Shown: one piece after another, positions 1,816-54,900 of the stretch
How positions within the stretch are numbered: position 1 is the first letter of the stretch
How the letters are laid out: each line of letters begins with the position of its first letter
Assembly: GCF_004340665.1 (NCBI RefSeq)
Contig: NZ_SLWO01000004.1
Location: 310,001-374,000 of the forward strand
DNA length: 64,000 nucleotides
Direction: 5' to 3'
Source: Pedobacter psychrotolerans
GTDB taxonomy: Bacteria > Bacteroidota > Bacteroidia > Sphingobacteriales > Sphingobacteriaceae
Notes under the pieces: generated by a model
Database searches by the model: none
Seen by the model: the letters and a program-made list of their open reading frames with translations, nothing else
What the model was told of the DNA's origin: nothing
Position numbers and translations under genes: made by a program

Positions 1816-4296
1816 TTATTGTATTTTTAAACGCTCGTTTCCGTTGTCTTTTTCGCTGGATTTCCGGTTATTTAATGATTTTCCACCAAAATTATAGGTA
1901 AATGATAAACGCAGCTGGCGGTAATCCAAACTCCGTCTTTCTGTAGAATGGACGTTAAAATAATCATACTGATAATTGTATTTCATGGAATTTAAAAGAT
2001 CATAAACACTGAGTTTTACATTTGCTTTTTTATTCATCAGTAATTTCTGGACACCCAGGTTTAGATAGTAAATCTCTTCAAGCCGGTTTAAGCCAATTAA
2101 CTGAGGGGCATCATATTTAAACTGGCACTCTAACTTATAATTGTTTTTTAATGTAAACGTATGATTGGTGCTGAACCCAAACCCAAACAGGTGGCGATCG
2201 TAACTTTTCCCCATATAATCGGCAGCTTTGGTTTGATTAAAATACCCGTAGGCATTGTTATTCATGTTCCACCAGTTGGTTACAGTTACCGGTATATCAA
2301 GTGCTACCGATACATTACTTAATACATCCAGGTTGGTTACTGCAAAAATATTAATGTTTGTTTTTTCCTGTATCTCCTGGATACTCACTATGGGGTTTGA
2401 GGTTCTGCTGTAGCTAACTGAGAGCGAATAATTCTCTTTAAAGGTATCTGAAAAGCTATATACATTGGTATATTCTGGCTTCAGAGATGGATTTCCCTGC
2501 AAATAATAATACTGGTTAAAATAAATAAGGGTTGGGTCAAGGTCCTGATATGATGGTCTGCCAATCCGCCTGCTGGCAGATATTCTTAAATCATGGGCAT
2601 TAAATTTTTTATCGGCACTTACGCTCGGAAACAGGTTTGTGTAGTCATTTTTAATACGCAAACCCGAAGTAAAAAAATTTGCATCTGATGATGTTCCTTC
2701 CAAACGAAGCCCTGCATGCAGGTTATAACCATCAATTTTCTTGGATAAATTTAAATAGGCCGCGAGTAAATTCTCACTATAACTAAAACTGCTATTTTTA
2801 GCCGGAACATTTACAATAGCCCCGTTAATTATTGAATCGTAAATAAGGTCGTTTTCCTGCCTGATCCATCCTCCCTTTACCCCTGCTTCCAATTTTGTAG
2901 TTTTATTAAACGGAACGGTATAATCTATCCTGGCCACATTATTATTGACCAGAAAAGGAACATTGTTTCGGATGGAGTTGGGCATTTTCAATTCTCTTCC
3001 ATCGGGATAGTAATAGAAGTTATTACTTATGCGATCGTCGAAATTATCAAATTGTGAAAAGGTATAGTTGAATTCGATGTTGTGGCCTGTTTCTTTAAAT
3101 TTATGGTTGTAATAAAAGTTATAGGCTGTATTGGTTAGTTTTTTGAGATTGCTGGTCTGCGTACTGTAAACAGAATCAATTCTAAAGTTGCGGTCGCTAA
3201 TCAGGGTAACATCATCAATGGTGCGGTTGCGCTCGAAAATGTTAAGGTCGAATGTAAAACCCATCGCACTGGAATTGTTAATATCATAGTCTACCCCTAC
3301 CTTCGCCACCTGGTTATCAAACCTCGGTTTAAATTTCATTTCCTGCTGAAAATTTAATGGCACACTGGCATCAATAAACCGGTCTATTTTAAAATTAACC
3401 GATCTTTTCATTTTATTATAGCTGTAGGAACCAAATACATTAAATCGTCCTTTTTTTACATTAAGCATAAACGAACCCAGCAGATTTGGATAAATACCCT
3501 GATTGTAACCGGCAGAAGCTGATCCGTTAACCCCGGCCTGTGTATTCTTTTTAGTAATGATATTAATAATGCCACCCGCCCCTACAGCATCATATTTTGA
3601 ACTTGGATTGGTGATGATTTCTATTCTTGAAATGCTTCCGCTTGGCATATTCTGCAAGAGCGAAGAAAGTTCTGAAGCAGATAACGGGCTCACCTTATTA
3701 TCAATCATCACGCTCACTCCTGCCCTGCCATTTAACCTTATCTGTCCATCATCACCAGCCGATAAACCTGGTATCTGTTGCAGTAGTTCGTTGGCAGTGC
3801 TTCCATTCGTTAATACACTATTACCCACGTTCATAATTATTTTATCTGCCCTTCTTTCAATCAGGTTTTGCTTAGCTACAATTGTAACGTCGCCCAGGTT
3901 TTTTGTATCCTTATTCATCAGGATATTACCTATAACCAGCACTCCGCTATCAGGAAGTTTTAAAGATCTTTGGTATTGCAGGTAACTAAGGGCAGTAATC
4001 TCCAGGGAATAGTTACCCGGTTTAACAACAGGGATAGAAAACTTTCCGTCAGGGTCGGTTTGGGTTGCTGTTCCTAATTTAGGATCCTGATTTTTGATCC
4101 GTATGGTACAATAAGCAATTGGATTTTTTGTAATACTGTCTAAAACAGTTCCGCTAATGCGCGTTTGTGCATCAGATGAAATTGACATAAACAGGAGTAC
4201 GATTACAAAGAGGTAGAAGCCTGAATATGGCATTAGAAAGCGGTATGCTGTGTTGAAAGTTTTAAATTTAAAATATCTGTTTATTTTATTCTGCAT
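1816..4296 (-). CDS. TonB-dependent outer-membrane receptor with CarboxypepD_reg domain
   Basis: The product is about 826 residues. After a hydrophobic export segment ending near SSDAQ comes a carboxypeptidase-regulatory-like beta domain (ISGTVLDS onward). A plug region follows, with NELLQQIPGLS and the GAGGIINIITKKN plug motif, and then a long beta-barrel ending LRLSFTYNFGGK, typical of the outer membrane beta-barrel family. The C-terminus continues about 20 residues past the aromatic barrel strand. ATG at 4296 is preferred; a GTG at 4323 also lies in frame but directly abuts the upstream stop. The gene lies inside the NRPS operon between the SbnB-like gene and NRPS-3. It may take up the product or its metal complex, or serve in self-protection (inference). 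The substrate cannot be read from sequence. Confidence 0.88.
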   Translation of the reverse strand: MQNKINRYFKFKTFNTAYRFLMPYSGFYLFVIVLLFMSISSDAQTRISGTVLDSITKNPIAYCTIRIKNQDPKLGTATQTDPDGKFSIPVVKPGNYSLEITALSYLQYQRSLKLPDSGVLVIGNILMNKDTKNLGDVTIVAKQNLIERRADKIIMNVGNSVLTNGSTANELLQQIPGLSAGDDGQIRLNGRAGVSVMIDNKVSPLSASELSSLLQNMPSGSISRIEIITNPSSKYDAVGAGGIINIITKKNTQAGVNGSASAGYNQGIYPNLLGSFMLNVKKGRFNVFGSYSYNKMKRSVNFKIDRFIDASVPLNFQQEMKFKPRFDNQVAKVGVDYDINNSSAMGFTFDLNIFERNRTIDDVTLISDRNFRIDSVYSTQTSNLKKLTNTAYNFYYNHKFKETGHNIEFNYTFSQFDNFDDRISNNFYYYPDGRELKMPNSIRNNVPFLVNNNVARIDYTVPFNKTTKLEAGVKGGWIRQENDLIYDSIINGAIVNVPAKNSSFSYSENLLAAYLNLSKKIDGYNLHAGLRLEGTSSDANFFTSGLRIKNDYTNLFPSVSADKKFNAHDLRISASRRIGRPSYQDLDPTLIYFNQYYYLQGNPSLKPEYTNVYSFSDTFKENYSLSVSYSRTSNPIVSIQEIQEKTNINIFAVTNLDVLSNVSVALDIPVTVTNWWNMNNNAYGYFNQTKAADYMGKSYDRHLFGFGFSTNHTFTLKNNYKLECQFKYDAPQLIGLNRLEEIYYLNLGVQKLLMNKKANVKLSVYDLLNSMKYNYQYDYFNVHSTERRSLDYRQLRLSFTYNFGGKSLNNRKSSEKDNGNERLKIQ

Positions 4297-4323
4297 GTTT
4301 TTCTGTTTAATCTGCTGTTGCAC

Positions 4324-5295
4324 TTAATCTTCTAGTAATACTCCGGCATTTAGTTCCATTGCAAGATGGTAATACTCACTGGCTATGGCAATATCAAATA
4401 TAGCCATCCCCATAGGGTTAAACATAATGATATCATCGGGTTGCTTATTCTTCAACAGGTCTCCGCAAATTACCTCAGTAAGGGTTATGGTATCCTTTTG
4501 CTGCAAACCCGTTTTTAGGTGCATATTTTCAATATCAGTATTTTCACGGCACACTTCATCCCAATCATCAATAATGATCATGTCTACCCAACTTCTGTAT
4601 TCAGGCACATAATCGCGTAAAGATACGTTCAGCTGTAGCGAACCTTTTTTCGGAGGCAGATTGATATAAGGTTTTTTGGAAACCGTACAGGTTATAAATA
4701 TATCGGCGTTTTTATAGGCACTTTCCCAATCCCCGCAAACGGTAACATGCTCCCGCAGCCGGGCAGGTACCTTTTTCAGGTCTACGCCCTGCAAATCAAA
4801 CATACGGATTTCCAGTTCACGATTTCCTGTTATTCCGGCCAGCATTTGCAGATGCAGTTGCCCGATTGGTCCAAAACCAATTATTCCAATACAAATTTTG
4901 TCCTGTTCTGGCCTTTGCAAAAGGTAAGCATCAACCAGAACACCTGATACCGCAGCAGTACGAATACCGCTAACAAGAGCCGTATTAAAAATGCAGCGCG
5001 GAACGCCTGTTTCTGCTTCATTAAGAATGGTTACGGAATGTGCCCTCGCCAAACCTTTATCCAGATTACGCGGAAAACTTGCAATCCATTTAATACCCGC
5101 CGTGGCTATATTCCCACCAACATAGGCAGGCATGGCTATAATCCTGTTAGATAGGTCCGAATAACGCAAATATGGTTTTACGGGCTGTACAACGTCCTGA
5201 TCTCTTAAAATATATAGGGTATTCCTGATTACATCCAATAGCTGATGCCAGTTGATGCCAATTTTTTCTAATTCCTTTTTGTTCAGATATAACAT
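4324..5295 (-). CDS. SbnB-like N-(2-amino-2-carboxyethyl)-L-glutamate dehydrogenase (2,3-diaminopropionate synthesis)
   Basis: The 323-residue protein belongs to the ornithine cyclodeaminase/mu-crystallin family. The N-terminal half has RIIAMPAYVGG and GIKWIASFP (Lys69 region), the latter closely resembling SbnB. A Rossmann motif GFGPIGQLH lies near residue 140, and a conserved GIRTAAVS segment precedes it. In staphyloferrin B and related pathways SbnB oxidises the SbnA product to L-2,3-diaminopropionate (Dap) and 2-oxoglutarate. No SbnA-like PLP enzyme is visible in the window, so the partner should lie beyond the left edge or elsewhere. The gene sits 25 bases after the sulfotransferase gene. 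Lysine or ornithine cyclodeaminase function is a weaker alternative, because the IASFP region fits SbnB better. Confidence 0.8.
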   Translation of the reverse strand: MLYLNKKELEKIGINWHQLLDVIRNTLYILRDQDVVQPVKPYLRYSDLSNRIIAMPAYVGGNIATAGIKWIASFPRNLDKGLARAHSVTILNEAETGVPRCIFNTALVSGIRTAAVSGVLVDAYLLQRPEQDKICIGIIGFGPIGQLHLQMLAGITGNRELEIRMFDLQGVDLKKVPARLREHVTVCGDWESAYKNADIFITCTVSKKPYINLPPKKGSLQLNVSLRDYVPEYRSWVDMIIIDDWDEVCRENTDIENMHLKTGLQQKDTITLTEVICGDLLKNKQPDDIIMFNPMGMAIFDIAIASEYYHLAMELNAGVLLED

Positions 5296-5320: not shown

Positions 5321-6184
5321 TTATCGGGTTAACTTAATGTAAAAATCCCAGAGTGTAAATCCCAGATTACCTGTATACGGGCGGCTAATTTTTTCGATTA
5401 TACGGTTGTATTTTCTAAATTTCTCCAGATCACGCTGAAATGCAGGTCCTTTATTGTTGATGATCTGATTAAATTGCTCTACAGCAAACGCATAGAGTTC
5501 GATATCATATTGGTTGGCTTTTTCGATGAGTGCTAAAGCACGGGCTGAGATTTGATTCCGGCCTGGTTTATTTTCAATGGTATTGAGCGCGGTATAAAAC
5601 GGATAATTCCAGCCGAATTGCTGCTGAAGCAATAACAACGTTTCATCAAATCTTTCAGTAATGCCAAAAATTTTATAATGGGTGATGAGGTTATGTTTAG
5701 CCGTTTCCAACATATTACGGTCGCATTTTTCATGGCTTTTGAGCTGGATACCGGAAATTTGCCGGGTTTGTATATTATCAAGCTCTGCACTTAAGCCACT
5801 GTCAGCAAATCCTTCGAGCTTCATTTTATTGCTCATCAGGATATTGTGCAAATAATGCCCCGGTAGTTTTAAGATGTAGTAGTAATAGGAAATCACCCTT
5901 TCTACAGGATCACGAAGTAAGGTAATATAGGTATAATCCTTATAATACTCATGAATTCCGTAACTGGTATGCCCTTGCAGCAATTTCATTTGCATTTGTC
6001 GGTTTTCCGGCATCTTGCTGAATTCGGCCAAAGCTTCATCAGTATTACCCGATTTTTCTCTTACATAGAAAAAAAACTGATCCTCTTTTTTGTATTGGCG
6101 CCCCATCACCGAAACCAATGTTGTACCTCCACTGCGTGGCACATGTGTAAAAATAATAGGGTACTGATTAATTGAGTTAAACAT
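5321..6184 (-). CDS. PAPS-dependent sulfotransferase-family protein
   Basis: The 287-residue protein has the two sulfotransferase nucleotide-binding signatures. The 5'-phosphosulfate loop THVPRSGGTTL lies at about residues 13-23, and the 3'-phosphate motif LRDPVERVISYYY at about 90-102. Length and motifs fit the Sulfotransfer_2 group, which also includes heparan and natural-product sulfotransferases. It lies between NRPS-2 and the SbnB-like gene with gaps of about 30 and 25 bases, so it is almost certainly a tailoring enzyme of this pathway. Candidate acceptors are the Tyr phenol, the glyceryl hydroxyl, or the side-chain amine of a Dap residue, as SulN does in sulfazecin biosynthesis. The last is attractive because Dap synthesis is encoded next door, but sequence alone cannot decide. 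Confidence 0.85.
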   Translation of the reverse strand: MFNSINQYPIIFTHVPRSGGTTLVSVMGRQYKKEDQFFFYVREKSGNTDEALAEFSKMPENRQMQMKLLQGHTSYGIHEYYKDYTYITLLRDPVERVISYYYYILKLPGHYLHNILMSNKMKLEGFADSGLSAELDNIQTRQISGIQLKSHEKCDRNMLETAKHNLITHYKIFGITERFDETLLLLQQQFGWNYPFYTALNTIENKPGRNQISARALALIEKANQYDIELYAFAVEQFNQIINNKGPAFQRDLEKFRKYNRIIEKISRPYTGNLGFTLWDFYIKLTR

Positions 6185-6215: not shown

Positions 6216-9200
6216 TTATTCAGGTTGGACTACGGCCAGGGCATACCTGCCTTGTATACCTGTTTCAATCCACTGGGTGCGTTCCAAAAACTGCTTAAAA
6301 GGCGTATTCTTTGCAGTAGGTATAAATTTTGCAACCAGCTGGCTTAATCCCTGTTGAGCAGCATCAGTATGCAGGAAACGGAGTACAATATCTTCTACTC
6401 CCCTTCCAAGAACCCTGCAGCTAAGCATGAAATTTTCGAGCAACAATGAGTTCCCGTCTACACGCGAAATAATAAGACCTGCCAAGCCATAATTCCCGAA
6501 ACGATCTTCTACATGGATTATTCTATTAAAGCTATCAGGCGCATTAATAATTTGCTGTACCTCTTTCGATGTTCGTTGTAAACCATTCATATTAAACTGA
6601 TTGGTTCGCTGTATAAGTTGCACCGCACGCTCTGTTTCTGCATTAGTTAAGGACAGCATGTTTACCTTAATGTTTAATGAGGCTATAAAACCGGCTAGCG
6701 AGTCGCTTTTAGTTTGCACATCGTTTCTCTCTTTTTCAGCCTTGTACCTATCATTGCGTTCCAGGTCTTCTTCTGTAAGGTAAAAGCGGTCAAAAGCCCA
6801 GTTATGCAATAAAAAATCAGTCATATCTGCAGGGTCTTCCGGAATAACCATGGCCAGTACCTCAGGACATCTGGCCGTTACCTGCTCTACCTCAAACTCG
6901 CTGTCATCAAGAAAGATAAAGCTGTCGGTTCCTAAATTCAATTCGTGGGCAATTGATTTTAAATTATCTGGTTTATGTTCCCAGTTTATTCTATGCGTAA
7001 TAATATGCGAGCGCTGTAGCACCATTTGCGGATGATGATCGAAAACGTTCCATACGTCGGCCTCGTTATTTTTACTGGCCAGTACAATTAAAAATCCCTC
7101 ATGGTATTTCTCTACCAAAAAACGTTGCAAAGCAGCGTATTGACCATCTATTTTTATTCCATCTAAACCTGCCTCCCCAACAATTCCCTTCCATAAAGTG
7201 TGGTCGCAATCTACCGCTATTACTTTATAGGGAGCAGTTTTCCAGGCATATATTTTTCTGACCAGGAATGTACCTAAAGCAGCATAATATTCTGGTGTAA
7301 AAGTGATATGGCCAATGTTATCAGCCCCATTATCAAATATTTCATCAACCTCATAAAGTTCGGTAACACCATTCATATCTAGCAGGTAACAACCGGTAAG
7401 GCTGGTAAAAAAATCTGTAAGCAATTGGCAAAGTTTGTTAATGGTATTGATCACTTCTATGTCATAATTACTGGAAGCTGAGGCAGGTACCACACCAACG
7501 AAACAAGGTGATAACATGCTATTTCTGCTATGGCTAAATGCAGCTAGCAACTCATTATAAGTTTTTTCCAGCAGGGCTGACTGATCTTTGGAGTTTAATG
7601 TGGGTTGATCACGTAACCAGTCTTCGGGACGTATAAATACAATATTTAGACCTTCATTTTTGCAGAGTATGCTATTTTCGTCATACAATTGCTGAAATAC
7701 CTGGTTATAGGGCGCAAAATCAATTTTTAAGCCCAGATCAACTTCTTTACCCCAGTATTCCATATATTCTTTAAGCGGATCGGCTACAAAGGATGAACAG
7801 ATGGTAATGCTTAGTTCGCTTTGCTGCGGTAATTCAGATGGTTCGGCAACCCACGGAAAATAAGCAGATAATGGCTGTGATGGATGGGCAATAATATCTT
7901 CCAGTAAATCAGTATACCGGGTTAGAAAAGTTGCCATACGTGGCTCTTTAAAAAGTGCTTTATTATACGTGAAGTACAGCTTTATCTCATTTCCTAGCGG
8001 ATATATATCCAATTTAAAATCTAACACAGCATGAACCTCGCTGTTTTGATCTTTGATATAAGGACTCATCCTGATGCCTGTATCTCCAGTTGACAGATCA
8101 CGGCCTGTAATGGATGTTTCGGAGTGAAAATTAACCATCGTATCAAAAAAAGGATTGCGTGCCCTATCACGTTCTGATAAACAATCGTCTACCATTAGGT
8201 CAAATGGATAATCCTGGTGCAGGTAAGCATTTACCAGTGTTTGATGGATAAAACGAAGGTAATCATCCAACTGATCGTTCTTATTGGCAGTGATGCGTAC
8301 CGGCAGGAAATTGATAAACACACCAAGCATATTTTCCAAGTCGATATGACTTCTGCCTGAAACAAGAGAGCCTATTACCAGGTCCTGCTGATCGGTATAA
8401 TGTGCCAGCAACATTCCATATAATGCAAACAACAGGTTATTTAAAGTAGTATTGCGTTCTAAAGCGAATGCTTTAAGCCTATCGGTTAATTCTGCAGACA
8501 ATTCGTGAACCAGTGACCCGCCAGAAAAAGATAATACTTCCGGACGCTCAAAATCGGCCGGAAACCGGAGCACAGGAATGTTGTTCTGATACAGATCATT
8601 CCAGTATTTACCTTGCGATTGGTAAATGCCGGTATGCCAGGCCGCATAATCCCGGTATTGTAAGGTAAGCGGTGATAATGCCTTTCCAATTCCGGTAGCA
8701 TAAAAACGATAGAGGTGCAACAGCTCCCGGGTAAGTATATTTCTCGACCATCCGTCGCTTACAATGTGATGGATATTAAAAAGGAAAATATATTTTTCTT
8801 CTGCCACCCTAACAAGTGTAGCCCGCAGCAGGGGGCCTTTTGATAAATTAAATGGCGCATGCATATCTTCGGTGATCATCTTTTCGATCACCTCAGCCGA
8901 ATTTGCTGTATGCCCCAAATCTTTTTCGTTTAGCAAAAAGTTAATGTCGGCAGGTGGTAAAATGAGCTGGCGGGGCGCTCCGTTAACCGTAATAAATACG
9001 GTTCTCAGACTCTCGTGCCTGGCAATCAGTTTTTCCAGTACATATTTAAATTTCGCTGTATCCAGCTTACCTTCCAACAAAGTTGCACTGGGGACATTAT
9101 AAGCGGCATTGCCTTCTTCAAACTGACTAAGCACCCACAAACGCTGCTGCGCATGCGATAATTGAAAATCTTCTTTTTCGGCTAATGCAGGTATTTCAGA

Positions 9201-12200
9201 AAACTGCTGTTCGGTTGCTCCAGGTATTAATTTTGCCAAAAGGTTAACCGTAGGGTAAGCAAAAATTTTACCTATATCAAGTTTTACGTTAAAGTGCTTG
9301 TGTATATGCGAAGTGAGCTGTATCGCTTTAAGACTATGCCCTCCCAGATCAAAGAAATTATCCGTAATGCCGATGCGGGTTTTACCCAGCACAGCTTCCC
9401 AAAGTGTAATCATTTCTTCTTCAATGCGGTTACTTGGAAGCACATATGCTGTTTCATTACCAGCATCTACTGCCGGAAGTGATTTTACATCGATTTTTCC
9501 GTTGGCAGTTATGGGAAGGCTCTTCATCGGAACAAAGTAGCTGGGAATGAATGCATCCGGAAGAAATTCATTAAGAAAATCACGGAGCTGCTTTGGTGAA
9601 ACCGGAACATTGCTTTCGTAATAAGCCGCGAGTTCCTTACCAAAAACATCATTTTCAATGGCAATTACTGCAACCCGATTAATGTCTTCATACCGCAATA
9701 GTGCATTTCTTACCTCATTTAATTCGATCCGGTAGCCACGTATTTTTACCTGGTCATCTTTTCTTCCTTTAAAAACAATTGTTCCGGAAAGTGTCCAGCA
9801 GGCCTGATCACCGGTTTTATACATAATCGAACCCGGTTTCCTGGGATGATCAGTAAATTTCTCCCTGGTCAGTTCATCATTATTCAGGTACCCTGAAGCC
9901 AAACCTGCGCCAGAAATACAAAGTTCTCCGGCAACACCCGGAACAGCATAATGGCCATGCTCATCTAAAATAGAAACAAAACTGTTTGCAATGGGATAAC
10001 CGATTACCGGATGGGTAGCGTAGGAATCGATCTTGTTGTTATCAATCAGTATGGCGATAGTGCCAATGGTGGTTTCTGTAGGCCCATAGTGATTGGCCAG
10101 TTGGACAGATGGTTTAATGCTGATCATTTTTTTCAGATCAGGTACACGTATCGGTTCGCCACCCATAATAACTAAACGCAGTGCACTATCTGTAAAAAGA
10201 TCGGCATTGGTAGCGCTAACCAGCAGTTGAAAAAGGGATGGTGTTGTTTTTAAAAAAGTAATTTTTTCATCTGCAATATATTGTACCATTACCCCGGGAT
10301 TTCTAATCAAATTATCGGGAATAAGGTGTAAACAGCCTCCGCCCAAAAGCATGCCCCATACACTTGTATAACCAAGATCGAAAGCATAAGAAGAGAGCAA
10401 TACCGCACTGTCTTTTTCTGTAACTTCAAAGTAAGCCCGGAGCCAGCTCACATAATTGACCAGGGATTGATCAGAGATTAAAACACTTTTTGGCTTTCCT
10501 GTTGTACCTGAAGTGTAAATGACGTAAACCACAGCATCTGTTTTTCGTACAGGGAAATGAGCTGCTACCTGATTTTCATTTAAAATGAGCTCGTCAATCC
10601 ATACGGTATCTATTTTATCATCCAGCATATTGCCCAAACTACTGTGGCTAAGTAATACTTTGGCAGAACTATCTTCCAGGATAAAAAGGGTGCGGCTAAC
10701 AGGACTTCGAGGATCAATTGGTACGAAAGCAGCACCTGCTTTTATGATCCCCAGCATCCCAACAATCATGTGTTCATTTTCTTCACATAACAACCCTATG
10801 CGGTCGCCCGGCCTGATTGATTTTTCTTTAATCAGATAATCCGTCAATCTGTTGGCTTTATTGGATAATTCAGCATATGAAATTCGTTTATCCCCTGCAA
10901 CCACAGCAATTGCTTCAGGATATCGTGCCGCTGCTTTATCGAACATTTCATCAACAGTGTAGGACGAAGCAGGAAATACCTGGTGATGAGGATTGAATGA
11001 TTCCATCATGTCATCCAGTAACGAAGCCGGGAGCAGCTGCAAGTTGTTTAACCGAATGGTAGTATCCGAAAAGCATTGTGCTGTAATGTTGCTGTACACT
11101 TCTGCCAGCAATTGAATACTTTCTTTACTGAAGGCATTTTTATTATAAATAAATTCCAGATTCAACGCTCCGTTTTCATTAATACACCTTAGCTGGATTT
11201 TTTTAGCTTCAACAAGGGTTTCGCGGTTCAAAACCTCAATTAAACCATCATTAATTACCTGATTATGGATGCTTAATGGCGAATTTATAAATTCAAACAC
11301 ATAAGAATATGTAGCATCTGGCCTGCCCGAAACTTCGTGTAAGAGCTTATATTCACCATTAGTTTCTATCATATCGCGATATGCTTCGAGGCAGAAGGCA
11401 AAAGACGTGTTTTCATCAATGGCCAGCGATATCGGTAAACAAAAGGAAAGCAATCCCATTATATCGTGAAGTTCTTCAAAATCACGGCCATTGTTAATAT
11501 GCTGTGTAATGATATCCTGTTTACCGCAGAAATTCCAGATTAACCATTGCCAGCAAACGCCCAGCCGAGCCTCTAAATCCTCATCAGCATGAGTTGAAGG
11601 GGGAAGCTGAAGGGCATACACACCGGGATCGAACACTGCGGTGTTTAAAGGATCTTCATCAAAAATCATTGCCGACATCTGGGCAATAAAACTATTTTTT
11701 TTCCAGTAAGTAATTCCATCTTCGTTTTCTTCGGCTTCGAGAAGTTGATTCTGCCATTCGGAGAACTGAAGATAGGGCAAAGCTTCTTCTGGTGTGGCAG
11801 TTGCATCATTCCCTGCCAAATAGCCCGCTATTAATTGATTTGCCAATACGTTAATGCTGTAAAAATCTGCACACAGCGCAGGGGTAGTCATCAGGATATG
11901 ATTAACTTCATCCGGGCCATTTACCACATCAAGCCGTACAAGCGGCCCGTTTTCAAGATCAAAAACCTGTTTCGAAGCAATTTTAATTATTTTACTTAAT
12001 GCATCCGGGTTAGTTATCATATGCTCACCAAAAATAAAGTCAGCAAAATCGTTAATAACCTGCACCGGCCATTCAATTCCGGCAGGCTTGATGTAAGTGG
12101 TGCGGAATATGCTGTATCGGTTGATAATTGCGCTCAAAGAACTTTTAAGCCTTTCCGGCTCAAGCACTCCTGTAATCTTAATGGTTACTTGGGTATATGG

Positions 12201-12275
12201 AATATGATGGTCCTTATACTTTTTAAAAAAATGTTGCTGCTGTGGCGATAAGCGGTAATAAGATAGCTGTTCCAT
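6216..12275 (-). CDS. NRPS-2: interface-like C, A (Asp-type), PCP, C, FkbH-like glyceryl-loading domain
   Basis: The protein has 2,019 residues. Residues 1-430 have the condensation fold, but the catalytic HHxxxDG is replaced by PALCADF (132-138). Residues 440-940 are an adenylation domain (YTSGTTGKPK at 587) whose pocket reads DLTKIGHIGK, near the Asp code. A carrier follows with GGHSL (Ser981), then a second C domain with intact HHIVSDG (1169-1175). Residues about 1490-2015 are an FkbH-like HAD domain (DCDHTLWKG at 1689) with a C-terminal acyltransferase-like lobe. FkbH proteins move the glyceryl group of 1,3-bisphosphoglycerate to a carrier. The protein has no carrier after FkbH; NRPS-3 begins with one. 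The degenerate first C matches the idea of an interface domain that recruits an Asp beta-hydroxylase, and the TauD gene lies 5 bases upstream. Confidence 0.93.
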   Translation of the reverse strand: MEQLSYYRLSPQQQHFFKKYKDHHIPYTQVTIKITGVLEPERLKSSLSAIINRYSIFRTTYIKPAGIEWPVQVINDFADFIFGEHMITNPDALSKIIKIASKQVFDLENGPLVRLDVVNGPDEVNHILMTTPALCADFYSINVLANQLIAGYLAGNDATATPEEALPYLQFSEWQNQLLEAEENEDGITYWKKNSFIAQMSAMIFDEDPLNTAVFDPGVYALQLPPSTHADEDLEARLGVCWQWLIWNFCGKQDIITQHINNGRDFEELHDIMGLLSFCLPISLAIDENTSFAFCLEAYRDMIETNGEYKLLHEVSGRPDATYSYVFEFINSPLSIHNQVINDGLIEVLNRETLVEAKKIQLRCINENGALNLEFIYNKNAFSKESIQLLAEVYSNITAQCFSDTTIRLNNLQLLPASLLDDMMESFNPHHQVFPASSYTVDEMFDKAAARYPEAIAVVAGDKRISYAELSNKANRLTDYLIKEKSIRPGDRIGLLCEENEHMIVGMLGIIKAGAAFVPIDPRSPVSRTLFILEDSSAKVLLSHSSLGNMLDDKIDTVWIDELILNENQVAAHFPVRKTDAVVYVIYTSGTTGKPKSVLISDQSLVNYVSWLRAYFEVTEKDSAVLLSSYAFDLGYTSVWGMLLGGGCLHLIPDNLIRNPGVMVQYIADEKITFLKTTPSLFQLLVSATNADLFTDSALRLVIMGGEPIRVPDLKKMISIKPSVQLANHYGPTETTIGTIAILIDNNKIDSYATHPVIGYPIANSFVSILDEHGHYAVPGVAGELCISGAGLASGYLNNDELTREKFTDHPRKPGSIMYKTGDQACWTLSGTIVFKGRKDDQVKIRGYRIELNEVRNALLRYEDINRVAVIAIENDVFGKELAAYYESNVPVSPKQLRDFLNEFLPDAFIPSYFVPMKSLPITANGKIDVKSLPAVDAGNETAYVLPSNRIEEEMITLWEAVLGKTRIGITDNFFDLGGHSLKAIQLTSHIHKHFNVKLDIGKIFAYPTVNLLAKLIPGATEQQFSEIPALAEKEDFQLSHAQQRLWVLSQFEEGNAAYNVPSATLLEGKLDTAKFKYVLEKLIARHESLRTVFITVNGAPRQLILPPADINFLLNEKDLGHTANSAEVIEKMITEDMHAPFNLSKGPLLRATLVRVAEEKYIFLFNIHHIVSDGWSRNILTRELLHLYRFYATGIGKALSPLTLQYRDYAAWHTGIYQSQGKYWNDLYQNNIPVLRFPADFERPEVLSFSGGSLVHELSAELTDRLKAFALERNTTLNNLLFALYGMLLAHYTDQQDLVIGSLVSGRSHIDLENMLGVFINFLPVRITANKNDQLDDYLRFIHQTLVNAYLHQDYPFDLMVDDCLSERDRARNPFFDTMVNFHSETSITGRDLSTGDTGIRMSPYIKDQNSEVHAVLDFKLDIYPLGNEIKLYFTYNKALFKEPRMATFLTRYTDLLEDIIAHPSQPLSAYFPWVAEPSELPQQSELSITICSSFVADPLKEYMEYWGKEVDLGLKIDFAPYNQVFQQLYDENSILCKNEGLNIVFIRPEDWLRDQPTLNSKDQSALLEKTYNELLAAFSHSRNSMLSPCFVGVVPASASSNYDIEVINTINKLCQLLTDFFTSLTGCYLLDMNGVTELYEVDEIFDNGADNIGHITFTPEYYAALGTFLVRKIYAWKTAPYKVIAVDCDHTLWKGIVGEAGLDGIKIDGQYAALQRFLVEKYHEGFLIVLASKNNEADVWNVFDHHPQMVLQRSHIITHRINWEHKPDNLKSIAHELNLGTDSFIFLDDSEFEVEQVTARCPEVLAMVIPEDPADMTDFLLHNWAFDRFYLTEEDLERNDRYKAEKERNDVQTKSDSLAGFIASLNIKVNMLSLTNAETERAVQLIQRTNQFNMNGLQRTSKEVQQIINAPDSFNRIIHVEDRFGNYGLAGLIISRVDGNSLLLENFMLSCRVLGRGVEDIVLRFLHTDAAQQGLSQLVAKFIPTAKNTPFKQFLERTQWIETGIQGRYALAVVQPE

Positions 12276-12280
12276 AATAA

Positions 12281-14134
12281 TTATTTCAACTGTTCGGGTT
12301 TTAGCAAAGAAAAGTCAGTGTACACCCGTTCTACTTTCCGTAATAAAGCATTAAATTCTATAGCAAGACCAAAATCATTCCCGATCCAGTCGCGTGTTAA
12401 TCTGGCAGTTTCCCCATCAATAAGTTTTATATCCTGAGTTTGCATGGCCAGCATATTTAAACGATAAGCCCTTTCTGCCGCTACCATTCTGATTACAGCA
12501 GATTCTATATTGGCACCGCAGGTTATAGTGCCGTGATTGCGGAGCACAATCATATCCTTACCTTTTAAAGCCGCAGCAAGCTGCATCGCCTCTTCAGTGT
12601 CGTTTACCGGACCACCAAAATGCCCGTATAATTCATGATTCTCAAAAAAAAGGCAGCAATTTTGATCTATGGGTTTTATATACCGATCGAGCGCACTAAA
12701 AAGTGTTCCCCATGGAGAATGGGTGTGTACTACGCAATTTACCTGGGGATAATGGTTGTGGATAGCCGCGTGGATACAGAATCCGGCAACATTAACCGGA
12801 TAATCTCCTTCAATCACCTCACCATTTTTATCAACTTTAATCAGGTTTTTTGCGGTTATTTCCTCCGCCAGCATACCAAAAGGATTTACCCAAAAACAAT
12901 CCGACTCCCCGGGTACACGCATACTGATGTGCCCGCTGATACCGCCCTCATCCAGCCCTTCGGTAACCATCACTCGGTAAGCAGCGGCGAGTTTATACTT
13001 TAATATACTATGGTCTGTATCATGGCTTGCATGATTGATAAAAAATTGTGCTGTAGCATGGCGGGTATTATTTACAACTTTGCTGTTTAACTGTTCTTCT
13101 ACAGGTTTGTAATGATAAGGATCGGCCATGGCTACAAGTACCTTTCGCGTTCCCTCGAAAGGTTCGCGCCCATGCGCAAAAAGTAAATTATCCAGCATAA
13201 TTACATCCGATGCCTTCCAGTCAAATTTAAATTGTGCCCTCCTGTAAGCTTCTCTTATTTCTTCCAGGTAAGCAATTGGAATGGGCGAACCATCGCCAAA
13301 AAAGGTATTTCTGGGCAGATGATCAAAGCCGCACTGCTCAATCAGGTAATCCTGAACGGCAGGAGCCTGACTAGAGATATGGAAAAGATGTGCCTGATTA
13401 AACCATACCCATTCTTTACTTTCCGGATGTTGAATAACAGCCTGGCACACCTGCCTGGTTCTTAAAGCATTATGCTCTTTCCATTCAAAGGTTATATTTT
13501 TTTTGCGGAAATATTTTTCTGCATCTTCTTTGCTTTCAGTTTGATAAACCTCCTGCCAGGGCAGGTCTAGTTCGTTACCGAAATTACGCACATACATTAC
13601 CCCTTTTTTTATAAATTCATTGCGCAAGCTTTCACTAAGGCCTGCAAATACCTTTCGGCTATCTGCCAGCGGTGTTGCACCGCCAACCTCGGCGGGTTTT
13701 ACGCTATAAAACCAAATTTTTTGAGGCCAATCGTTGCTGTAAGAATGTTCATTGTGCATGGGAATATGTTCCTCTTTCGGATATTCTGTTGAGGTATATA
13801 CTTTTTCAGCCACCTGCCTACGGGGTGTAGAAGGTTCAGAATAGTCCATAAGCTCATTCGATAATTTCCGTGTAAATGAGTTGAATGCGGCATCATCATT
13901 AACGTTGAAACCACGGAATAATACGGCTCCGTAGCGTTTATAGGCATCGTCAATACTGCTTTTATTTACTGTTGCCCACGCATTTAAATCAAGCCGCTCC
14001 CCTGTTTCAAACATTGCCAGTTCTCCGTTTCCTGTGTTAAGAAATGATAATCTGACTGTGGTAAGGGGATCAATTTTAATGGATTGAGGCTGAGTATTCA
14101 TGAGCCCTTTTAAGGCATCCTGCTTTAATTTCAT
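12281..14134 (-). CDS. TauD/TfdA-type Fe(II)/2-oxoglutarate dioxygenase fused to class II aldolase/adducin domain
   Basis: The protein has 617 residues. Residues about 25-340 are TauD/SyrP-like, with iron ligands HNE (127-129) and the distal His in AHGR (321), plus EVGGATPLADSR, typical of this family. Residues about 360-600 are a class II aldolase/adducin domain with the metal-binding HTH (470-472) and RNHG (534). The acidic residue used by fuculose-phosphate aldolase is not visible at the expected place (AGFCIH is present instead), as in the adducin-like subgroup. The dioxygenase is expected to beta-hydroxylate carrier-bound Asp, since an Asp-type A domain follows at once in NRPS-2. The aldolase half could act on the hydroxylated residue or on a separate precursor; its reaction is unknown. 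A single frame covers both domains with no sign of frameshift. Confidence 0.87.
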   Translation of the reverse strand: MKLKQDALKGLMNTQPQSIKIDPLTTVRLSFLNTGNGELAMFETGERLDLNAWATVNKSSIDDAYKRYGAVLFRGFNVNDDAAFNSFTRKLSNELMDYSEPSTPRRQVAEKVYTSTEYPKEEHIPMHNEHSYSNDWPQKIWFYSVKPAEVGGATPLADSRKVFAGLSESLRNEFIKKGVMYVRNFGNELDLPWQEVYQTESKEDAEKYFRKKNITFEWKEHNALRTRQVCQAVIQHPESKEWVWFNQAHLFHISSQAPAVQDYLIEQCGFDHLPRNTFFGDGSPIPIAYLEEIREAYRRAQFKFDWKASDVIMLDNLLFAHGREPFEGTRKVLVAMADPYHYKPVEEQLNSKVVNNTRHATAQFFINHASHDTDHSILKYKLAAAYRVMVTEGLDEGGISGHISMRVPGESDCFWVNPFGMLAEEITAKNLIKVDKNGEVIEGDYPVNVAGFCIHAAIHNHYPQVNCVVHTHSPWGTLFSALDRYIKPIDQNCCLFFENHELYGHFGGPVNDTEEAMQLAAALKGKDMIVLRNHGTITCGANIESAVIRMVAAERAYRLNMLAMQTQDIKLIDGETARLTRDWIGNDFGLAIEFNALLRKVERVYTDFSLLKPEQLK

Positions 14135-21662: not shown

Positions 21663-23438
21663 TCATTTTTCTTCAAAAACATATACACATTCCAGGATGG
21701 TGTCTAAAACGCTATTTTCCAGTTCAGCATTTAATTTAAATCCGCAGGTATACGCCAGTTCGTGAGAAATTTTTCTGTATAATTCTACCTCTCCTACCAG
21801 CGACTGAAACATGGTATTGATATCAGAATGAGGAAAATTCCGTAGCAACCCGACATAAAATTCAGGATCGCACCACTGCTGTATTTTTTTGGCCTGAGGA
21901 TAAATATTTTTCACTGGATGATGAATTGCTGCATGCCACTCCATCATTTTAATTAATTGATTTTTCATTGAATTATCCAGAACAACAATGGCATAGTAAA
22001 AATCTTGACGCATCAGTTTTGCTGCCATTTTATTTGCCGTATGCCAAAATCTTTTATAATTGTTATAAAACCGTTTTGCATCAGCCTGGCCGGCTAAAAA
22101 ATGTTTCGGAGCATCCTGGTACCGGTGTAAAATGGTTTCCAAAATCTCCTCTTTAGCATGGATCAATTCAAAGCCATTATTTAATATCTGGTCAAAATTC
22201 TGTTGAAAATGGTTGTCATTTTTAGTAAGATGTAAGTTATTAATCACATTTACATTAATGCAGCATCCATTTTTTAAAAGAATATTTACCACAACACCAA
22301 AAGCACCCTCAGCGTTTGACAGGCTTAAATTGTCTTTAAAAGATTTACGCCAAGTATCGTGGTTGGTGTACTTATAACAGTTTGTCGTAATTAAAAAACA
22401 ATCTATTTCCAAAAGGCTTCCATCCTTGCTACATAACCCATTATCGGAAATGAAAATTGCATCAATATCATCTTCACCTTCAGGCAATTTATATAGCGGA
22501 ATGGTGATTTCTTTTAAATCGGTAACTGTTCCTATCAGTTGTTTCTCCATAAAGGCATTGTACACCTGTTTTTCAAGTAACCTGTTTGGATTAAATTCTT
22601 TTTTAAGTGCTATATGATTAGATAACTTGATATAAATTTGCATGGTTTGCAAAACTGCGTCTCTTACCTCATCTTCGCCGGCATTTGGAAAAACGTTAAA
22701 TAGCGCTAAGTATAGTTTCGGATCACACCACTGTTTCAGTTTGGCACCATAATAAAATACATCTAAATTTTTATCGTTAGTTTCGAGCAAAGTGTACCAC
22801 TGGATAAGCAGGATCAAGTTTCGTTTCAGAATATTGTCTACCATAATGTTGGCATAGGCCAGTTCGTTCCCAATTAACCAGGTATTCATTTTATAACAAT
22901 TTTGCCAAAACTGGTTCCAAAGCCCGTTAAACCGCTCTTCGTTCAAAATCATATCCTTATCTTCACTCCCTGCCTCGTGTTTAAATACAAGATTTATAAT
23001 TTCCTGAATATCGATAGTATCAAAAACAATCTGGTATCCCCTTTTCAGGTAATAATGAAAATCATAAATATGGTTGTTGATTAACCGGATTAAATTTTCG
23101 GGCAGTTGTAAGGGCGTTTCCGCCAAATAATTCTTTACTTGAGTAAATTCTTTAACATCAACAATTAACAAATCCAGGGCAGGACCATCTTTCATGATTA
23201 ATTTGTTAACTTTCATGTGCGCTACGATATCTTTTACAACCAATCTTGAAATCACTTCGCCAAGCTCATCTACCCATTCTAAATCAGCATCGTTAATATA
23301 TTTTAACGGATCAGAAGTAAATATAATCAGATCTAAATCTGAGTATTTATCGCTACTGGTTAAAGCGGCCGATCCAAAAGCAATAATCGATTTTATATCA
23401 TCGCTTTTGTTTCCAAATAATTTAAATCTATCAATCAT
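21663..23438 (-). CDS. Tandem-duplicated ANT(6)/AadK-like nucleotidyltransferase
   Basis: The 591-residue protein starts with a nucleotidyltransferase domain bearing the metal and nucleotide motif FGSAALTSSDKYSDLDLIIF (about 21-40). A helical region with WCDPKLYLALFNVFP follows, as in streptomycin 6-adenylyltransferases. The second half repeats this plan: a weakened copy with SDNGLCSKDGSLLEIDCFLI, then a helical part with WCDPEFYVGLLRNFP. The second copy has lost the GS and DxD residues, so only the first copy is likely catalytic. Its start codon lies 2 bases beyond the exporter stop, so the two are translationally linked. It may modify the peptide for self-protection or tailoring, or act on tRNA or an aminoglycoside-like substrate. 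The target is unknown. Confidence 0.75.
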   Translation of the reverse strand: MIDRFKLFGNKSDDIKSIIAFGSAALTSSDKYSDLDLIIFTSDPLKYINDADLEWVDELGEVISRLVVKDIVAHMKVNKLIMKDGPALDLLIVDVKEFTQVKNYLAETPLQLPENLIRLINNHIYDFHYYLKRGYQIVFDTIDIQEIINLVFKHEAGSEDKDMILNEERFNGLWNQFWQNCYKMNTWLIGNELAYANIMVDNILKRNLILLIQWYTLLETNDKNLDVFYYGAKLKQWCDPKLYLALFNVFPNAGEDEVRDAVLQTMQIYIKLSNHIALKKEFNPNRLLEKQVYNAFMEKQLIGTVTDLKEITIPLYKLPEGEDDIDAIFISDNGLCSKDGSLLEIDCFLITTNCYKYTNHDTWRKSFKDNLSLSNAEGAFGVVVNILLKNGCCINVNVINNLHLTKNDNHFQQNFDQILNNGFELIHAKEEILETILHRYQDAPKHFLAGQADAKRFYNNYKRFWHTANKMAAKLMRQDFYYAIVVLDNSMKNQLIKMMEWHAAIHHPVKNIYPQAKKIQQWCDPEFYVGLLRNFPHSDINTMFQSLVGEVELYRKISHELAYTCGFKLNAELENSVLDTILECVYVFEEK

Positions 23439-23440
23439 AT

Positions 23441-25096
23441 TTATAAATTAACAGGGATATTCCATAGTTCATCAGCCTCCAATGAATGGCTTTTCAGGTC
23501 TATATCTTTAACAACCTGGCCGTAATCAAATTTAATAATGCGATCTGCATGTTTAAAGTAAGCATCATCGTGTGTAACTGCGATAATGGTTTTTCCTTGT
23601 TCTCTTAATTTAATCAGCATTTCCTCGTAAAAATATTTTCTAAAGTGCGGGTCCTGGTCTGCCGCCCATTCATCCAGTACCAGTATTGGGCGTTCTTCCA
23701 GTAAGGCAAAAATCATTGCCATCCGTTTGGTTTGCCCCTTAGAAAACTTTCTTCTCGCTGCAGCATCATCAATACCTGATACTACGGTATCGAGTTCCAT
23801 CGTTTCTAATAAGGCTTTATATACCGCGTTATTTTCAAGTTTATATCCTTCATAATTTGCAGAAAAGAGATGAGGTTCGGAATAAACAGCAGAAATATGG
23901 TTTCTGTAATATTGAGAATCATTGCCCACCCTTTTCCCGTTAAAAAAAATATTTCCCGAGGTGGGATGATAAATACCGGTAAGCAAATTGATAAAAGTAC
24001 TTTTACCACTTCCATTTCCACCAATTACAAAAATAAACTCCCCTTTTTTAATTGTCAGGTTGATTTCTTTTATCGCGAATCCATCACCAGATAAAGCAGA
24101 TTTATATTGATAAGAAACCTGATCAAATACGATTTCATTTAACCCTTCTGGGTGAGTTGTTAATGACTCTGCAACATTTGAAACAGGGAGATCTTTAATG
24201 TCTTTCAAAAAGGTAGCAATTCTTTTATTTGCTACAAACGCCCTGTTAAAGAACCCTTGGAGCGCCATTAAACTATTTATTGGTCCGCGTATAAAAAGAA
24301 GAATAATTACAAATGTAGTTACCTCTTGCTTGTTCAGCATTCCAGTTCGCGGAAGGATAAATATTACAATGCCAATAAGTAAGTACAGGCCATATTGACT
24401 AAAAAGATTAATAACAGACATCAGTCCGGATACCCTGGTTTCTATTTTATTAACGGATAACCTGTTCGGGCGTAGATAATTTTCCCTGATACCTGTTCTT
24501 CTGATCATACTTAACTTAAATTCTCTAAAGCCTTTAAGAATATCATCAACAATTGCAAAATAACTATTATTAAGCTCTTTAAGCCTATCCATACTATGCT
24601 TTACTTTTATATTTACGGCATAATAAACTGACGAAATCACCATAATCAGTGTAATGATAAAAATGGCAGATGGAAGCGAAACAACCAGAAAATAGATTAA
24701 ACAGATAAACAATGTCATTAACGATGTAATAGCAGTATTGATGATGCCCGGTAAAAAAACGAGCACCCGAAGGTCTTCTATTATACTGTAAATTCTTTGT
24801 AAACCAATTTCTTCCAGGTGATGCATACTAGCCTTCTGGAAATTTTCCATAATATGCAGTTCACTTTCATAAATAAGCTTATTTGAAAAAACAATAATTT
24901 TCTTTTGAAAAAATATATTCAGTAAAAAAGAAAATATAACAAGTGAGAAAAAGTATATATCCAGGTTACCATAAATAGCTAACATTTTGCCTGATACAAT
25001 ATAATTTACCATAGTTAATATACCGAGAGTAAGTATTGTATTTGGAATTGAAAAAGCCACCAAAAACAAAATACTCTTTACTGAAATTCTGAACAT
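23441..25096 (-). CDS. Cyclic-peptide-type ABC exporter (PvdE/SyrD family)
   Basis: The 551-residue protein is a half-transporter with a permease and an ATPase fused. About six membrane segments occupy residues 1-290. The ATPase has Walker A GGNGSGKST (359-367), an atypical signature FSKGQ (451-455) and Walker B ILVLDEWAADQDP (471-483). DEWAADQDP is a hallmark of the PvdE/SyrD group, which exports siderophore precursors and lipopeptides to the periplasm. Its place between the type II thioesterase and the biosynthetic genes supports export of the NRPS product or an intermediate across the inner membrane. Some members also work with periplasmic maturation enzymes, but none is seen here. Confidence 0.9.
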   Translation of the reverse strand: MFRISVKSILFLVAFSIPNTILTLGILTMVNYIVSGKMLAIYGNLDIYFFSLVIFSFLLNIFFQKKIIVFSNKLIYESELHIMENFQKASMHHLEEIGLQRIYSIIEDLRVLVFLPGIINTAITSLMTLFICLIYFLVVSLPSAIFIITLIMVISSVYYAVNIKVKHSMDRLKELNNSYFAIVDDILKGFREFKLSMIRRTGIRENYLRPNRLSVNKIETRVSGLMSVINLFSQYGLYLLIGIVIFILPRTGMLNKQEVTTFVIILLFIRGPINSLMALQGFFNRAFVANKRIATFLKDIKDLPVSNVAESLTTHPEGLNEIVFDQVSYQYKSALSGDGFAIKEINLTIKKGEFIFVIGGNGSGKSTFINLLTGIYHPTSGNIFFNGKRVGNDSQYYRNHISAVYSEPHLFSANYEGYKLENNAVYKALLETMELDTVVSGIDDAAARRKFSKGQTKRMAMIFALLEERPILVLDEWAADQDPHFRKYFYEEMLIKLREQGKTIIAVTHDDAYFKHADRIIKFDYGQVVKDIDLKSHSLEADELWNIPVNL

Positions 25097-51958: not shown

Positions 51959-54900
51959 ATGTCACCACAACCTGAAACTATCACTTCGTTAGATAATACC
52001 ACCTATAATTTTCAATCATGGAAGCAATTATTCGATTTGCTATCCTTGACGCACATACCGGTTCAAAACGCTGTCGTTGAAAGAGACGAAAGCAACATGA
52101 TTATTTCTGTCCATGCTGATGGCACAGTGTATGACCAGGTGGCAACGGTCGATTTAACTCGTAAGGGTGCCGGAATTAAAAGCGATTTTAAACTTAGAGT
52201 AGAAATTCAACAATTGCCCTTACGAAGCTTGCTGATCCAACCCGGGCTCGCTTCGATATATGACCAATTGACATCGGCTGGTTTACTGCCCAGCATTGCA
52301 TTTCAGCAGATAATTATTGAAGGCGATACAGCAAAGAATAATATTCGTTTTACATCCATTGCCGGGACGAGCGAATGGGCATTGCCTGGCTTTAATCAGT
52401 TAAAGCTAAAGCAGCTATCATTTATATACTATAGGACGTATTCCCGTATCACTAAAGGGGGATCCGCAATTGTCACATTTGGTGGCCGTCTCAATATTGG
52501 GCAAACTGGTTTGGAGGCGTCCGTACAGACCGGAACTGACAGGCCCGGCCAATTGATTATACGCACGAAACAGGAAGTACCTCTTCAAAAAAGCTTGGAC
52601 GAAATAAGTGCTTTTCTCTTAGGTCAGTCAATCTCCGCCATTTTACCCGAATCCTTTAGCAACGTTCCTGGTGTCTATTTATGTGACTTATATACACTAG
52701 TAAACCTGCGAGAATTAACAATTATCTCTACAGGAATTACCCTTGAAGTCAGGGAGGCATGGACATTAATGGAAGGTATTTGCCGAACAGGCAAATCAAG
52801 CCTATCACTGCGATTGGATAAAACCGCTAGCGGTGTTAGCTCGGTTCTTACAGTAATTTCAGAAATTACGCTTGTCGAAAATCTTACCACAACGTTGCTG
52901 ATTGAGGTAGATAACCTGACGGCTAATTGGCTTGTTAGCCTGAATGCAGCATTGAGACTTCCTCGATTGAAAGACATTGATGTGCTGTTAGGCCTTTCAA
53001 CACTATCCAATTCAGGATTGCCAGCTTCCCTCCTTGAACAGCAGTTACAGATTGATATACGAGATTTAAAAATGCAGTTCAGCCCTGCTGAAAAAACATT
53101 CAATGAATTCTCCCTAACCATTGCTTCCGAACAGCTTTGGGAGGTTATGTCAGGAATAAAAATTGGCAACACGTTATTTGAATTGAGTTGGACAAAGCAA
53201 GAGGGCATTCTCACAGGTAGTGTTTCCGGAGAGTTGTTACTCGGCAATAATCTAAAAGTTGCCTTATCGGGGGAAAAGCTTCCCGGAGGTATTATGATGG
53301 CAGGCAACTTTACCGCAAATTCACCACTTAAGCTTACCGAAGTGTTGTCCTATCTCTTCCCTGGCTTTCAGATGCCTGATGATTTATTTGAAGTGAAAAT
53401 TATCAGTGGTTCTGTCAAAATTGATACATCTAACGGCGCGTTTGATCTGGATATTGATAATGACAGTTATCTGAACCTGGCGCCTCTTGCTAGGCTGGAA
53501 TCGAAAAAGCTGACCGTTAGCTATAAAAAAGGCGATAACAGATGTACAATTAGCACAAAAGGTGCTTTTCGACTGATTAATCTTTCTGAAGGCGTAGCTG
53601 AGGCCAGTTACTTACTAAACCTCGAAGGAACGCTTAAAGCCAATATCGAAAAGGATCAGAATAGTGTTGGGTTTGTCAGCGATGAAGGCAAATCATCAAT
53701 AGAATTGCCTACGCTTATTCCAGGCATAGACGGGAAGAATGTTTTGCTGCGCTTTGGACTACAGCGCATCGAGTTAAAGCAGGAAGCAGACAAAGGCTGG
53801 AAATTTAGTGCGACAACTGAGACGCAGTTGAGGAACCTAAATAAGAATATTGCCTCCATATTTCCCGACAAGATGACCGCATCGCTTACAATTAGTAAGA
53901 CAGAACAGGTGATTACCTTAGACCATATAGTTCGGCCGCTCACCTTCGTGTTGCCAGAAGTTGAGTTTCCAACTGGCAAGGTACAGCTTGGCACCCTGGC
54001 CATCGGCTTGAGTAATTTTACTTTTGCACTGCGCAAGGAGGCTGAGGCATCTGTTGATATAGCCCTTGGATTGCCATCGAACCTGAATAAAATGTTTGGT
54101 GCAATGCCGGACCCGGCGGACACAAGCAAAACCAAGCCAGCCTTTGAACTATTCCGCACCTATGTTGAAGGAGACGCCGACAGTTATTTTAAATTAACCT
54201 TTGCTGCTACCGCCTCCGGAGGGGTAAAGCTGAGGTTAGGCAATTCGCCATTTAAGGTCAAAGCTTTTGAAATTAAGGACGGCTACTGGTACTGTGATCT
54301 CGGTTACTACGGCAAGCTGAAAATTATGTTACCTGTTTTGACTTATAAAAACGGTGCATTCAGCGGTAGAATCAGTTTCGAGCGGGAAGGAGAATTACGC
54401 TTCCCAATGTACCTGTTCAAGCAGATCATCAAAGACCAATTTAAGCTTGCCAAGGCAGCTGAATTCATCCCGGATGCCATTCCTATTACTAATATTGCCA
54501 TACTGAACGATAGCGGGCATCTGAACGTAGCTACTATCCTGCAAGCCTTAAATCTCACCGGGGACGACCCAACCAGTAAAATAGTTCGAAGTATTATATC
54601 AGCCGTCGATGGAGTATTGGACGAACTTCCCGAGCGACTGCGTGATGTGTATATGAAACACCTGACCATTCCTGAGAAATTCTATGCAGAAGTTGCAGTC
54701 GGAGCCGATGGTGGTATCAATATAGATATGGGCGTCGAAGGCAATAAACAGCAAGGGACGGATGTGCTCCGTCTGTTATTCCCTGCAGCTATTGGCCCAT
54801 TACCGGTGCTCAATGGTATTGAGTTACGCGGGTTCTCAGTAGGCACGACAATGGGCGGCAGCTTACTAACCTGTTCGATGGATATGGTTGTGGACCAGTT

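Follow-up and report, generated by a model that had tools for sequence, protein, structure and literature searches.

TauD-aldolase fusion gene in an NRPS cluster

The window, the whole stretch of 64,000 nucleotides of Pedobacter psychrotolerans DNA analysed here, contains one end of an NRPS cluster that reaches about 25 kb into the window and about 26 kb beyond its left edge (Table 1). Within this cluster, a gene encoding a fusion of a TauD-type oxygenase with a class II aldolase-like domain is located between an NRPS with a C-terminal condensation domain and an NRPS with an N-terminal interface-like domain. The frame begins with ATG at 14134 on the minus strand and contains no internal stops. 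A Pfam search of the 617-residue protein identified the TauD domain with an E value of 1.6e-45 and the Aldolase_II domain with an E value of 3.8e-43. In an AlphaFold2 model calculated from an input of 44 sequences, both halves were well folded (mean pLDDT 89.6), and the pTM of 0.61 means that their mutual placement is unreliable. A second copy of the fusion was not found in the source genome, in which one distant class II aldolase match is present elsewhere.

Table 1. Positions of the fusion gene, its domains and neighbouring features in the window
Feature	Position	Strand	Remarks
NRPS with bare N-terminal carrier domain	1-1686 and beyond	-	4168 aa; continues left of window
TonB-type outer-membrane beta-barrel protein	1816..4323	-	Pfam
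SbnB-like protein (2,3-diaminopropionate)	4324..5295	-	match just under family cut-off; SbnA partner left of window
Sulfotransferase (PF03567)	5321..6184	-	Pfam
Downstream NRPS, 2019 aa	6216..12275	-	interface-like domain, A3, T3, C4, FkbH
FkbH domain	6279..7229	-	C-terminal on downstream NRPS
C4 condensation domain	7860..9170	-	HHIVSDG intact
T3 carrier domain	9225..9413	-	Pfam; putative site of Asp modification
A3 adenylation domain	9495..10943	-	code DLTKIGHIGK (Asp type); would load the substrate
Interface-like domain, residues about 1-430	10986..12275	-	PALCADF in place of HHxxxDG; putative docking site for fusion
TauD-class II aldolase-like fusion	12281..14134	-	617 aa; ORF list, Pfam, homologues, AlphaFold2 model
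Class II aldolase/adducin domain, residues 381-559	12458..12994	-	triad H470, H472, H534; FucA E73 and Y113 replaced by G451 and Q491
TauD domain, residues 47-335	13130..13996	-	iron ligands H127, E129, H321
Upstream NRPS, 2340 aa	14169..21191	-	short N-terminal remnant, A1 (DASTIAAVCK)-T-C-A2 (DLTKIGHIGK, Asp type)-T-C
Cyclic-peptide-export-type ABC transporter	23441..25096	-	same cluster

The canonical Stachelhaus code for Asp is DLTKVGHIGK. The interface-like domain is a degenerate condensation domain. At the other end of the same NRPS, C4 is followed by FkbH, and the next NRPS begins with a bare carrier domain, which suggests that a glyceryl unit is joined by an ester. The two look like a split glyceryl-loading module, which would give a depsipeptide.

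Left of the window, the cluster continues with the 4168-residue NRPS, an NRPS with a thioesterase, a further NRPS and SbnA (above the cut-off), along with genes for an APS kinase, a carbamoyltransferase, an FAD protein, a phosphopantetheinyl transferase and a diaminopropionate ammonia-lyase. The sulfotransferase in the window, taken together with SbnA, the APS kinase and the diaminopropionate ammonia-lyase outside it, makes a sulfated product containing 2,3-diaminopropionate likely. A siderophore or antibiotic that is secreted would agree with the presence of the outer-membrane protein and the cyclic-peptide-type exporter. A monobactam-like product was considered on account of SbnA/SbnB, the sulfotransferase and TauD, but the NRPS line is much longer and includes Asp and FkbH modules. 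The cluster also encodes a 591-residue protein (21663-23438, minus strand) consisting of a nucleotidyltransferase half and an ANT(6)/AadS-like half. A shorter relative (35%) is present in the cluster of one other fusion-bearing genome (G323), and self-protection or tailoring by adenylylation is a possible function. Elsewhere in the window, a 2062-residue frame without a Pfam match (51959-58147, plus strand) adjoins a 491-residue frame with a weak metallo-beta-lactamase match.

Distribution and origin of the fusion

In a search covering about 1,100 genomes overall, full-length fusions were found in six more genomes of Bacteroidota, with 44-62% identity to the window protein. The highest identities were those of Chryseobacterium rhizoplanae (62%) and of G687, a genome from another family of the same class (61%). 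The remaining four, from genomes of the same family as the window (G345, G109, G323 and G332), displayed 44-48% identity. With seven full-length examples from about 1,100 genomes, the fusion is rare. The six homologues rule out a sequencing artefact or a frameshift joining two genes, and the single 617-residue frame of the original prediction is real.

Trees were calculated separately for the two halves. The seven fusions formed one clade in both, with support of 99/98 for the TauD half and 96/96 for the aldolase half. The subgroups were also identical, consisting of the window protein with those of Chryseobacterium and G687, G345 with G109, and G323 with G332. As matching clades and subgroups were obtained from separate trees, a single fusion event followed by joint descent of both halves explains the relationships among the fusions.

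TauD and class II aldolase-like genes also occur as unfused neighbours outside an NRPS setting, in cyanobacteria (L033, L041, L149), Cupriavidus (L150) and Thalassospira (L151). The class II aldolase-like proteins of the cyanobacterial pairs are about 50-55% identical to NovR. We considered such pairs as parents of the fusion, but neither half grouped with the fusions in the trees. Since the pairs fall outside the fusion clades, pairing of TauD with an aldolase-like protein may have arisen more than once.

The gene context of the fusions, whose examination had been proposed along with the original prediction, proved to be constant. All seven lie inside NRPS clusters, and all four cluster types include an NRPS with an N-terminal condensation-like domain devoid of HHxxxDG and an Asp-type adenylation domain. 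This NRPS directly follows the fusion in the window and in G345, G109, G323 and G332. In Chryseobacterium and G687, the fusion is a few genes away from the module. The code extracted from the Asp-type domain of G687 was DLTKAAHIGK, possibly reflecting an alignment slip.

The clusters of G345 and G109 (L102-L107) harbour, in one assembly line, a second and unfused TauD gene in addition to the fusion. The unfused TauD adjoins modules with the code DLTKIGEVGK, and modules coded DLTK[IL]GH[IV]GK also lie beside these genes. TauD in these clusters is thus not always paired with an aldolase half, and the two assembly lines provide a natural comparison for what the aldolase half adds.

The TauD half and Asp beta-hydroxylation

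The ligand motif HNE...H noted in the original prediction corresponds to the iron ligands of the TauD domain (HxE...H; Table 1). In structure comparison, the TauD half of the model matched 1y0z with a Z score of 32.9. Among records whose product is known, CcsK from Leptolyngbya NIES-3755 (BAU16062) was the closest, with 51% identity over residues 39-340. CcsK has been assigned as a self-standing Asp beta-hydroxylase preceding the Asp module CcsL in cyanochelin B synthesis, and the structure determined for cyanochelin B has beta-OH-Asp as the residue from the CcsL module (PMC12628792). The N-terminus of CcsL is also a domain devoid of HHxxxDG, the code of its adenylation domain is DLTKIGHVGK, and the order of NRPS, hydroxylase gene and interface-plus-Asp NRPS is the same as that around the window fusion. 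On the other hand, CcsK has no aldolase-like half, the product residue is beta-OH-Asp, and an epimerase domain follows.

Interface-partnered Asp beta-hydroxylases of NRPSs feature a TauD fold with HxD/E...H ligands, which is present here, and a neighbouring condensation-like domain devoid of HHxxxDG with an Asp-type adenylation domain, which is present for all seven fusions. The homology with CcsK and the shared layout therefore make hydroxylation of carrier-bound Asp at C-beta a well-supported predicted function of the TauD half.

Structure and residues of the aldolase-like half

The aldolase-like half was compared with solved structures. The nearest was NovR (PDB 9ryg; Z 36.5, 1.5 A, 250 residues, 31% identity), followed by 4xxf (Z 33.0), TqaM (32.3), pyruvic oxime dioxygenase (32.1) and 3ocr (30.1). 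Adducin (25.2), FucA (23.6) and AraD (22.3) were lower. In profile searches, NovR scored 176 bits, TqaM 128 bits and FucA about 50 bits, with 4xxf and NovR far above FucA. The entry 4xxf, which comes almost as close as NovR, carries the label of an L-fuculose phosphate aldolase.

The metal ligands proposed initially, HTH and H534, were found as the triad given in Table 1. The original prediction had also remarked that the usual acidic residue of fuculose-phosphate aldolase seemed to be missing. This is the case in all seven fusions, where Glu73 of FucA aligns with Gly451, and a second replacement that had escaped notice, that of Tyr113 by Gln491, accompanies it. The corresponding residues are Ala/Gln in NovR, Gly/Gln in TqaM and Gly/Pro in adducin. 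Gln491 and Cys494 are common to NovR and TqaM and are not found in adducin-1 or FucA, and the fusions have Asp490 at a position occupied by Thr in NovR and TqaM. FucA relies on Glu73 and Tyr113 for its acid-base chemistry, and the Fe(II) dioxygenase POD lacks both (PMC11841055). The absent acid is better read as a mark of this oxygenase-like group than of lost function.

Among the relatives, the aminocoumarin non-haem iron oxygenases NovR/CloR share with the fusion the fold, the His triad, the Gln at the place of Tyr113 and a small residue at that of Glu73, but they are stand-alone proteins, not joined to a TauD domain, and their substrate is a free prenylated aromatic compound. TqaM of the 2-aminoisobutyrate pathway (PDB 9m09, 9m0a, 9n43) has these same features and in addition the His at position 402. 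It is a fungal, stand-alone enzyme and acts on a free amino acid. Pyruvic oxime dioxygenase (8il8) is an Fe(II) dioxygenase of the class II aldolase fold with three His ligands and without Glu73 and Tyr113, although its substrate is different and it is more distant (Z 32, 24% identity). FucA and AraD have the fold and the His triad in common with the fusions, but not Glu73 and Tyr113, and their Z scores are 22-24. Based on residues and fold, the aldolase half is a poor candidate for an aldolase, and the O2-using iron enzymes NovR, TqaM and pyruvic oxime dioxygenase are closer to it in structure than FucA or AraD.

We also considered that the fusion yields beta-OH-Asp only, with the aldolase-like half playing a structural role in oligomerisation or docking as in adducin. 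Adducin and 3ocr have the same fold with 30-33% identity, and CcsK/CcsL, the known pair with the same layout, stops at beta-OH-Asp. Adducin retains the His triad though it has no known enzymatic activity, and possession of the triad does not by itself prove catalysis. The aldolase-half tree is compatible with both the NovR side (AU p value of 0.36) and the adducin/3ocr side (support of 70/24 for this rival split). However, all seven fusions, down to 44% identity, retain the His triad together with Gln491, His402 and His455. Invariance is enriched in the pocket, where 14 of 15 FucA-pocket positions are unchanged among the seven fusions compared with 86 out of all 249 columns (p 1.7e-6, a value for columns that are not independent and of which some are conserved superfamily-wide). 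Furthermore, unfused TauD proteins adjoin interface-Asp modules without an aldolase half. A purely structural role is therefore unlikely in our judgement, while still the strongest of the alternatives.

A two-step oxidation on the carrier

TqaM catalyses the decarboxylative oxidation of 3-amino-2-hydroxy-3-methylbutanoate to Aib, and acts downstream of the 2-oxoglutarate oxygenase TqaL, with the hydrolase TqaF between the two oxygenases (PMC11880133). Since beta-OH-Asp offers the same group as the substrate of TqaM, HOOC-CH(OH)-C-N, the same reaction would give an aminomalonyl-S-carrier. Taking this into account, we propose, with about even confidence, that one fusion protein converts Asp via beta-OH-Asp to an aminomalonyl residue on the NRPS carrier.

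The fusion would then be a two-step, carrier-acting oxidase. In the first step, the TauD half would dock on the following NRPS at its interface-like domain and hydroxylate C-beta of the T3-bound L-Asp, giving beta-hydroxy-aspartyl-S-T3. In the second, the aldolase-like half, presumably with a NovR/TqaM-like three-His Fe(II) centre using O2, would convert the side chain from -CH(OH)-COOH to -COOH by oxidative decarboxylation. The balance, R-CHOH-COOH + O2 -> R-COOH + CO2 + H2O, would leave an outside reductant unneeded. The remaining aminomalonyl-S-T3 would be handed on by C4. Here we infer that the metal is Fe, that hydroxylation comes first and that aminomalonate is kept rather than losing CO2 to become Gly. 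The idea in the original prediction that the pair rewrites an Asp residue on the carrier survives as regards the substrate, which is likely to be Asp in view of the DLTKIGHIGK adenylation domain beside the interface-type domain and the Asp-hydroxylase type of the TauD half. The chemistry proposed here is different.

The same conversion, from Asp to beta-OH-Asp and on to aminomalonate, is reported for SmaO/SmaX on a graspetide precursor (PMC13097080, citing Kim et al. 2025). So far, the overall two-step conversion proposed for the fusion is reported only from this pair of separate proteins, whose substrate is a ribosomal peptide. A literature search found no described NRPS product with aminomalonate of such origin, and no paper naming a TauD-aldolase fusion was found in the open literature searched. 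Each half represents an established type of protein, and a ribosomal peptide provides a precedent for the overall conversion. Within the scope of these searches, such a fusion on an NRPS carrier is undescribed.

The second step might also take place with a different outcome, the aminomalonyl group subsequently losing CO2 or being oxidised differently to leave Gly or oxo-Asp. Aminomalonic half-acids readily decarboxylate as a matter of general chemistry, and NovR is bifunctional according to the title of PDB 9ryg, so the fold does not fix the outcome. Nevertheless, a Gly-specific adenylation domain would be a simpler route to Gly, and Gly-like codes exist elsewhere in the same cluster. SmaX is reported to leave aminomalonate in the peptide (PMC13097080). 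We consider Gly or oxo-Asp as the final residue to be quite improbable. A retro-aldol reaction that splits beta-OH-Asp into Gly and glyoxylate, or epimerisation via retro-aldol/aldol chemistry, agrees with the Pfam label Aldolase_II and the fold of FucA/AraD, but is very improbable, with both essential FucA residues replaced as in NovR and TqaM and absent from POD, FucA and AraD 13-14 Z units under NovR, and a structure closer to O2-dependent iron enzymes than to aldolases or epimerases. The original prediction had put forward the retro-aldol step and mentioned epimerisation as a further possibility; neither was kept as the first choice, on the grounds of residues and fold.

Implications

If aminomalonyl formation by the fusion is correct, a compact two-step enzyme would be added to NRPS chemistry, with a new route to aminomalonyl units on the assembly line, and an oxygenase built on the class II aldolase fold would be acting on a residue bound to the carrier. 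A TauD-aldolase fusion beside an interface-Asp module would then be a sequence rule predicting aminomalonate, with a mass shift of -14 Da relative to Asp. Hydroxylation alone would instead predict beta-OH-Asp, with a shift of +16 Da, and a metal-chelating peptide. The fusion would thereby serve as a marker for a group of Bacteroidota peptides not yet studied.
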